From Catillopecten margaritatus gill symbiont (GTDB lineage Bacteria > Pseudomonadota > Gammaproteobacteria > PS1 > Pseudothioglobaceae), in contig CP138327.1 of NCBI GenBank assembly GCA_037956075.1, positions 372,001 through 436,000 of the forward strand: DNA of 64,000 nt. Direction: 5' to 3'. A program made the translations under genes and the position numbers. The notes under the pieces were generated by a model that was not told the DNA's origin, made no database searches, and saw nothing but the letters and a program-made list of their open reading frames with translations. Of this stretch, positions 36,864-39,813 are shown in pieces. Within the stretch, counting starts at the first letter, position 1. The number at the start of each line of letters is the position of its first letter.

Positions 36864-38222
36864 TTAATACTTATAACTCTCAGGCTTAAACGGGCCTTGG
36901 TTTGGTACATTAATATAATCAGCTTGTTCATCGGTGAGTTTTGTTAGCATACCGCCGAAACCTGCAACCATATCGGCGGCGACTTCTTCGTCTAATTTTT
37001 TAGGTAAAACCTTAACATAAATATCTCCACCAGTTTTAGCAAATGCTTTTTCGTAAAGATACATTTGTGCTAATACTTGGTTGGCGAATGAGCCGTCCAT
37101 GATGCGGCTTGGATGACCTGTGGCGTTGCCTAAGTTGACTAAGCGACCTTCGGATAATAATACGATGTAGTCGTCTTTGTCGGCACTGCGATTGATGCGG
37201 TGGACTTGGGGTTTGACCTCGTCCCATGACCAGTTGTCGCGCATAAATTGGGTGTCGATTTCATTGTCAAAATGACCAATATTACAAACAACTGAGCCTT
37301 GTTTAATCATTTTCAACATTGCAGAATCACACACATTGTAGTTGCCTGTTGTTGTTACGATTAAATCGGTGGTGGCTAATAATCGTTTGTTGATGTCGTC
37401 GGTTTTGCCCGTGTTGTTGCCTTGTTTGTAAGGGGAGACGATTTCGAAGCCGTCCATACAGGCTTGCATCGCACAGATTGGGTCAATTTCACTGACTTTA
37501 ACAATCATACCTTCTTGACGCAGGGATTGTGCTGAGCCTTTGCCGACATCGCCATAGCCGATGACGAGGGCTTTTTTGCCTGCCATGAGCATATCGGTGC
37601 CGCGTTTGATGGCGTCGTTAAGTGAGTGGCGACAGCCGTATTTGTTGTCGTTTTTTGACTTGGTAACTGAGTCATTGACATTGATGGCAGGGACTTTGAG
37701 TTCGTTATTTTCCATCATTTCGATTAAACGATGCACACCTGTGGTGGTTTCTTCGCTGATGCCGTGGATGTCTTTTAGCATTTCAGGGTATTTGTTGTGT
37801 AACATTTCGGTCAAATCGCCGCCGTCGTCTAGCACCATATTTGCGTTCCAAGGTTTGCCGTCGGATAAAATGGTTTGCTCAATACACCACAAAAATTCTT
37901 CTTCGGTTTCACCTTTCCAGGCAAAAGTTGGGATATCAGCGGCAACCATTGCGGCGGCGGCGTGGTCTTGGGTTGAAAAGATATTGCACGATGACCAACG
38001 AACTTCTGCACCTAAATCAACGAGTGTTTCCATTAAAACTGCGGTTTGAATGGTCATATGAATACAGCCTAAAATTCTTGCGTTTTTTAAAGGTTGTGTT
38101 GTTTTATATTTGCTTCTCAATGCCATTAGTGCTGGCATTTCCTTTTCTGCTAACTCAATTTCTTTACGACCAAAATCAGCCAGATCCATATCGGCTACTT
38201 TATAATTGTTTATTTCTAACAT
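36864..38222 (-). CDS. ahcY: Adenosylhomocysteinase
   Basis: A 452-residue NAD-dependent enzyme hydrolysing S-adenosylhomocysteine, thereby recycling SAM-cycle by-product. Motifs seen: [49 protein letters not shown], the NAD site [13 protein letters not shown], and the C-terminal KPESYKY. The ATG at 38222 has a GGAG site 5-8 bases upstream; a longer reading into the leader would translate the palindromic element and is rejected. It lies in the same region as metK, so SAM synthesis and SAH removal are neighbours. Confidence 0.95.
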
Positions 38223-38238
38223 TTTTATCTCCAATTGA

Positions 38239-38398
38239 GGGACTGTTGAATATTGAAAGTACAACTTATGAAATACATAAAACAGCACCTTTTTTACCCA
38301 AAAATTCGTCAAATAGCTGGCTATTCTCCTCATTTTTGGGTAAAAAATGCACTATTTTCTGCATTCCCTAAGTCGCACTCTCAACATTCAATAGTCCC
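38239..38398. repeat. 160-bp imperfect palindrome (element C) in the ahcY leader
   Basis: Positions i and 76637-i pair from GGGACT at 38239 to AGTCCC at 38398, with a 16-bp perfect core stem (TTTTTTACCCAAAAAT) and a small ATAGC/GCTAT tip. I count nine A-C/C-A pairs and one G-T pair on the plus strand plus three other arm mismatches. On the minus strand, the sense strand of ahcY, the nine become G-U wobbles. The hairpin ends just before the ahcY ribosome site (38228-38231). Sequence is unrelated to element B. Confidence 0.88.
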
Positions 38399-38416
38399 AT
38401 TAAAAAATAAGTGTCG

Positions 38417-38466
38417 TTAAAAAAACCAAGCCTACTTAAGAAAACTTAAGGCAACACTTCTTGGTT
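38417..38466 (-). terminator. Terminator of the metK transcript
   Basis: Minus-strand hairpin with outer stem AACCAAG/CTTGGTT and inner CTTAAG-TTTT-CTTAAG helix, followed by seven T (38425-38419). It starts 8 bases after the small-protein stop and so ends the metK-small protein unit before the ahcY leader. Confidence 0.75.
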
Positions 38467-38473
38467 GTTACTT

Positions 38474-38689
38474 TTATTTTAAAATCCCATATCTCGGTTT
38501 AGAATAATCTATTGTGTGATCGCAACTGCCATCATTTTCACAGTCGTTAATGCCATCTTCATCCATATCCCAAGTGCTGTGTATTCCTATTTTATTACCA
38601 TCAACATCATAACCTTCAAGATTTGCTAAATAATTAAATTTATACATTCCCGCAGCAATAACCATTAAAAAAATACTTGCTAATAGCAT
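38474..38689 (-). CDS. Small membrane-anchored Asp-rich protein
   Basis: A ~71-residue protein with one N-terminal helix (MLLASIFLMVIAAGMYKF) and a short outside domain containing DMDEDGINDCENDGSCDH, an Asp/Asn-rich loop reminiscent of calcium-binding dockerin/EF-hand or thrombospondin type 3 loops, with two Cys. The ATG at 38689 lies 9 bases after the metK stop; a TTG at 38716 would overlap metK. No family recognised. It is transcribed with metK under the riboswitch. Confidence 0.6.
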   Translation of the reverse strand: MLLASIFLMVIAAGMYKFNYLANLEGYDVDGNKIGIHSTWDMDEDGINDCENDGSCDHTIDYSKPRYGILK

Positions 38690-38697
38690 TATTATTT

Positions 38698-39813
38698 TCA
38701 GATTAATTTCTCCCAACTAATCTCATCTTCAGTGCGACCAAAATGTCCATAAGCTGCCGTTTGTTGATAAATTGGACGCTTTAAATCCAGCATTGCAATC
38801 AAGCCTTTAGGACGCAAATCAAATTTTTCACGCACACAATCTTCAATTTCAGCAATCGCTACTTTTTCCGTGCCAAAAGTTTCGATGCTAATACTCGTTG
38901 GCTCAGCCACACCGATTGCATAAGAAACTTGAATTTCACATTTGTCTGCTAATCCAGATGCAACGATATTTTTAGCAACATAACGAGTCGCATATGCCGC
39001 ACTTCTATCTACTTTTGAAGGGTCTTTGCCTGAAAATGCACCGCCGCCGTGTCGTGCCATACCGCCATAAGTGTCAACGATAATTTTACGCCCGGTTAAG
39101 CCTGCATCACCGACAGGACCACCGATTTCAAAAGCCCCTGTTGGGTTAATATGATAGTGCGTTTTGTCGCTCAACCAATCGGCAGGTAAAGTCGGTTTAA
39201 TAATTTCTTCCATTACCGCTTCTTTGAGTTCAGATTGGGTAATATCACCATCGTGTTGCGTTGACAAAACGACGGCATCTACGCCAACGACTTGACCATC
39301 TTTATAAACGCAAGAAACCTGTGATTTTGCATCAGGACGCAACCAAGGTAATTTGCCACTTAACATTAAATCGGCTTGTTTTTTAACTAATAAATGTGCG
39401 TAAGTAATCGGTGCTGGCATCAAAACATCGGTTTCGCTACAGGCGTAACCAAACATTAAGCCTTGATCACCTGCCCCTTGTTCGTGGCTGTCAAATTCAT
39501 CGACACCTTGGGCAATTTCTGGCGATTGTTCGCCTAATAAATTCATAAATGTGCAGCCATCACCTGTAAAGCCGTATTCTTCTTTGGTGTAACCAATAGC
39601 GTTAATGGTGTTGCGTACGATTTGCTCGTAATCAATATTGGCACTGGTAGTAATTTCACCTGCTAATATTACATGGTTGTCTTTAACCAAAGTCTCACAT
39701 GCAACGCGTGCGTTTTTGTCTTGTGTTAAAGCGGCATCCAGTATTGCGTCAGAAACTTGGTCGCAAACTTTATCGGGGTGTCCGGCAGAAACGGACTCGG
39801 AAGTAAAAACCAT
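38698..39813 (-). CDS. metK: S-adenosylmethionine synthase
   Basis: A 371-residue enzyme making SAM from methionine and ATP. Signatures: [48 protein letters not shown] (adenosine loop), and the [19 protein letters not shown] stretch. An AGGAGA ribosome site precedes the ATG. A SAM-II-type riboswitch and an intrinsic terminator occupy its ~140-base leader, giving feedback control by its own product. Confidence 0.96.

Follow-up and report, generated by a model that had tools for sequence, protein, structure and literature searches.

Why does a long palindrome stand in the leader of ahcY in the gill symbiont of Catillopecten margaritatus, and why do nearly all of its mispairs favour the same strand? 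We analyzed this locus within a window of 64,000 nucleotides (the whole stretch of DNA considered here). The palindrome is placed between a SAH riboswitch aptamer homologue and the GGAG ribosome site of ahcY. A first, sequence-only reading had located a 160-bp palindrome just before this ribosome site, and its coordinates proved exact (Table 1). The two arms (38239-38317 and 38320-38398) are 77% complementary. In strict register, the minus strand forms 61 Watson-Crick, 10 G-U, 2 A-C and 7 other pairs, one of the A-C pairs being in the apical loop. Read as minus-strand RNA, the stems thus contain 10 G-U against 1 A-C (p=0.012), close to the 9:1 ratio of transition-type mispairs reported initially. 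The remaining mispairs (7/7) are purine-purine, all G-A on the minus strand and C-T on the plus strand, so that outside the apical loop the minus strand has the stable form in 17 of the 18 mispairs (p=1.4e-4). The predicted folding energy is -89.9 kcal/mol for the minus strand (z -14.9) and -52.4 kcal/mol for the plus strand (z -8.8).

Table 1. Features of the metK-ahcY region, in positions of the window.
Feature	Position	Strand	Basis
ahcY (adenosylhomocysteinase), start ATG just 3' of the GGAG ribosome site	36867..38219	-	
Target-duplication candidate TCAAT (minus-strand reading), 1 mismatch to TTAAT opposite	38234..38238	.	Flank comparison
MITE-like palindrome, 160 bp, class A ends GGGACTATTGAATGTTGA / TCAATATTCAACAGTCCC	38239..38398	-	Arm alignment, pairing count, homologous copies
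Core, 122 bp, common to all three end classes	38258..38379	-	Comparison of copies
Apical part: near-invariant stem AAUAG-CCAG-CUAUU and internal loop GAGGAG/UGACGA with G-A pairs	38305..38332	-	Fold and family alignment
Target-duplication candidate TTAAT (minus-strand reading)	38399..38403	.	Flank comparison
SAH riboswitch aptamer homologue, upstream of the palindrome	38401..38468	-	45.7 bits, E 1e-11, model built from relatives
metK (methionine adenosyltransferase), upstream gene, same strand as ahcY	38701..39813	-	

The metK-ahcY spacer lacks the palindrome in nine relatives, most of which retain the riboswitch. Rfam model RF01057 scores above its gathering score in four of the six relatives' metK-ahcY loci searched (45-52 against 37). 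With Rfam's own model this score is reached nowhere in the window; the aptamer of the window is homologous to those upstream of ahcY in the relatives and keeps their pairing, GAGCG/CGCTC having become AAGTG/CACTT. The ahcY leader thus bears an aptamer homologue as in the relatives, and this aptamer is a neighbour of the hairpin, distinct from it. In the predicted fold of the leader, the pairing of the ribosome site is identical with the palindrome and with its two flanks joined. A promoter and terminator scan of the ahcY locus gave sites no commoner than in shuffles, and no promoter-like site within the element.

Several other features were noticed in these spacers. In that of genome G006 (L121), the SAH riboswitch has been lost and ahcY comes almost directly after metK. 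Two spacers (L126 and L127) contain, between riboswitch and ribosome site, a different stretch, some 100 nt long, whose ends are partly complementary and which was unmatched by the element searches. L120 and L128/L129 carry a different MITE-like repeat (ends GAGACCTTTGCATAA) immediately upstream of the riboswitch; the metK-ahcY spacer has thus been struck by mobile repeats more than once. In the window itself, an 80-amino-acid small ORF (38474-38716, minus strand) is present between metK and the riboswitch and was unseen in those spacers of relatives that we read.

The ahcY palindrome belongs to a non-autonomous, MITE-like family with inverted ends, target duplications and dispersed copies. 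The symbiont's own genome (1.54 Mb) contains 25 matches to it at about 17 places, and 24 of 83 genomes in the order carry the element; these belong to four genera of a single family, of sulfur-symbiont type, and none is among the 29 genomes of the genus coded g13. As expected of MITEs, the copies are short and non-coding, carry terminal inverted repeats, are dispersed at unrelated sites and show a target duplication; the ahcY copy also corresponds to an empty site in relatives. The terminal inverted repeats are perfect or near-perfect and define three classes, A (GGGACTGTTGAAT), B (GGGCACCYCCAGAAACCCC) and C (GAGACCACTGCATTAACCC). Class B copies are flanked by target duplications of 4 bp, exact in 19/26 cases where permuted controls give 2.7; for classes A and C the maximum is at 5 bp. 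Whatever the end class, copies usually measure 160 bp, with positions 20-141 as the common core. The unusual trait of the family is a core more constant than the ends, one core being found with three kinds of ends; in the core tree, whose support is weak, the end classes switch at least four times, the minimum possible being two.

In the genomes searched, we found no inverted pair of family ends 0.7-3 kb apart that could represent an autonomous partner. One DDE insertion sequence of the symbiont's own genome differs in its ends and has a repeat of 3 bp, and viral contigs yielded no copy of the element. A match in one Alcanivoracaceae MAG (L090) covers the apical loop only, with no palindrome, and was discarded as chance or contamination; matches to plant microRNAs in Rfam, far below gathering scores, were also rejected since they reflect a long AT-rich hairpin. 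A search of literature mostly outside the subscription journals returned no description of this repeat family. The nearest kind in size, ends, hairpin transcripts and, for ERIC, orientation effect on mRNA is that of the NEMIS/Correia and ERIC elements, membership in either being not claimed. NEMIS/Correia elements of Neisseria are about 100-160 bp long, with inverted ends and a target duplication, and form a long stem-loop in transcripts from intergenic sites (PMC2229807). The family described here resembles them in size, inverted ends, target duplication, hairpin and intergenic sites; however, the ends differ, and in our family a single core is combined with three classes of ends. Processing by RNase III has been proposed for NEMIS. 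ERIC (or RU-1) of enterobacteria, palindromic, non-autonomous and 127 bp long, affects mRNA in an orientation-dependent way (PMC2229807). Our element is likewise palindromic and non-autonomous, but its orientation effect amounts to no more than a skew in the places where copies have survived.

The strand asymmetry noticed at ahcY is a property of this family. The same strand, hereafter the strong or sense strand, folds more stably in 73/73 copies (mean -67.6 against -42.4 kcal/mol). The columns in which a mispair is the family majority are 20 sense-stable against 0 (p=2e-6), namely 12 G-U and 8 purine-purine, with neither A-C nor pyrimidine-pyrimidine. Most of these columns are also present in the ahcY copy, whose mispair bias is therefore inherited. 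The asymmetry was thus already in the family and was not acquired at ahcY, and it says little about ahcY regulation.

The sequence-only reading had offered two causes for the bias, an RNA hairpin kept by selection or a favoured C-to-T change on the non-template strand, and had suggested a search for other copies and for covariation. Once copies had been found, the compensatory signal of the sense strand exceeded shuffled and slid controls: among 30 copies, the covariation score is 0.215, above all 500 shuffles (0.157) and all slid versions (at most 0.09), against 0.084 for the other strand. In the same copies 95.5% of the sense-strand cells are paired, against 76.1% for the other strand, and 13 sense-strand pairs have changed on both sides. 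The direction of mutations was analyzed with path-disjoint sister pairs and by polarisation with the three nearest copies, the copies being related and thus not fully independent. Path-disjoint sister copies show 147 Watson-Crick/G-U differences against 39 Watson-Crick/A-C, and at Watson-Crick-majority columns only, 83 against 35. Near-terminal changes from Watson-Crick pairs gave 41 G-U and 20 A-C (p=0.01; polarisation by three nearest copies). Naming each base direction on the pairing partner that changed, the excess of G-U comes from A-U pairs, with A>G 27 and T>C 9. From G-C pairs, C>T (14) hardly exceeds G>A (11), and a C-to-T bias is thus not supported as the cause of the asymmetry. Altogether, the idea of a hairpin kept by selection is supported in part. 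At the level of the family, pairing is retained on that strand, but the signal at ahcY is inherited and unspecific to the locus: relatives lack the element there, and most copies of the family face the opposite way to transcription.

Single-copy variants show no such preference (22 sense-stable, 28 sense-unstable), in a bin that under-counts recurrent G-U. An earlier count of private variants, 12:13, also looked neutral; it was not retained as the main test because recurrent changes are excluded from this bin. This balance points to little or no selection acting at present on single copies. Four copies (L072, L086, L083 and L114) lie within the same flanks in two genera and represent an old shared insertion. 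Two of them, L072 and L086, have decayed to weak hairpins (-20.5 and -23.9 kcal/mol), which argues with the balanced variants that individual old insertions are not strongly held.

We also considered the orientation of the copies, gene direction being computed from the coding score in 600-bp flanks rather than taken from annotation. In 42 copies both neighbouring genes run against the strong strand, and in 13 they run with it; counting each orthologous site once gives 37 and 13 (p=0.0009). In two complete genomes with a clear GC skew, 14 of the 29 copies have the strong strand as lagging template (14:15). As far as these 29 copies tell, the bias tracks transcription and not replication. Since the element is near-palindromic, insertion could hardly choose an orientation, and we infer that selection removes insertions that would put the strong hairpin into mRNA. 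The ahcY copy has the minority orientation, with the strong strand in the mRNA.

The ahcY palindrome is thus a MITE-like element that landed between the riboswitch and the ribosome site. We propose that its hairpin closes on itself and keeps the riboswitch and ribosome-site segments adjacent, so that the insertion would be nearly neutral. The strand asymmetry would have arisen early in the family and been kept because the weaker transcribed hairpin, with its A-C and C-U mispairs, would be better tolerated between co-transcribed genes. Most survivors would thus carry the strong strand, with its G-U and G-A mispairs, opposite to transcription, the ahcY copy being an exception. Taken as a whole, this account of a mobile insertion, near-neutral at ahcY, with an inherited asymmetry kept by mRNA tolerance, is in our opinion probably correct. 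On the other hand, the target duplication of the ahcY copy is imperfect, with one mismatch, the single-copy variants are without preference and no autonomous partner was found in the genomes searched; all three count against it. The covariation and the conserved G-A apical loop, which tolerance alone would not call for, also suggest that the strong strand itself might matter.

The core could be an RNA-selected module that two or more transposition systems, with 4-bp and 5-bp duplications, have co-opted, the asymmetric mispairs deciding which operon orientation survives; we consider this possible, if doubtful. One could also assume that the strong-strand RNA is itself functional, as a small RNA or structured element whose folding is kept by selection. 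The covariation and pairing values given above would fit such a role, as would the near-invariant apical stem with its G-A internal loop and a core conserved across three kinds of ends. Yet the strong strand usually runs opposite to the flanking genes, no promoter-like signal stands out at the ahcY locus, and two old orthologous copies have decayed, so that the hypothesis appears unlikely. It is hardly more plausible, and perhaps slightly less so, that the asymmetry is mutational, founder copies with one strand exposed having gained C>T and A>G there before being amplified. The ancestral state of the asymmetry (20:0) and the unbiased single-copy variants would agree with this, but the 14:11 ratio of near-terminal C>T to G>A does not, the G-A mispairs are unexplained by a deamination bias, and the copies lie mostly opposite to transcription, where such a bias would push the other way.

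Two further explanations seem to us very improbable. One would make the hairpin a selected leader element of ahcY (an RNase III site, an attenuator or an extension of the riboswitch), its G-U pairs resulting from selection at the locus. Its high stability on the ahcY sense strand and its location between riboswitch and ribosome site would suit this role; against it stand its absence from nine relatives' leaders, the family origin of its mispairs, the unchanged predicted pairing of the ribosome site and its minority orientation. The other would hold that the hairpin that matters is that of single-stranded DNA, formed by one strand during replication or transposition. G-T and G-A are milder mismatches in DNA too, with preferences similar to those of RNA, and the left arm of L108 is an almost perfect match to its right arm, which is not so in the orthologues and looks as though the sequence of one arm had overwritten the other. 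However, orientation is biased with respect to transcription and not to replication, and duplicated target sites with inverted ends indicate double-strand transposition.

If the insertion account is right, this locus shows how strand-specific mispairs of a DNA palindrome can be read as the history of a mobile element rather than as a role in the gene beside which they came to notice. The locus also suggests as a rule that the better-folding strand of a palindromic mobile repeat would decide which orientation survives between co-transcribed genes. One core under three kinds of ends also raises the question of how small elements swap the ends recognised by a transposase. In one pair of copies, L100 and L106, the flanks are alike on both sides and the ends are of class C in one and of class B in the other, which means either two insertions at one site or ends exchanged in place. 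Finally, inserts of about 20-30 nt (for example CCTCCTAGAGGACTGCTGTGTGGCGC, CCTACAAGGATTGCTGTATAG and CAGTACCCCCTTGAGGGGTATAA), resembling small hairpins, are observed at varied positions within L011, L012, L087, L015-L018 and the G007 copies L073-L082.
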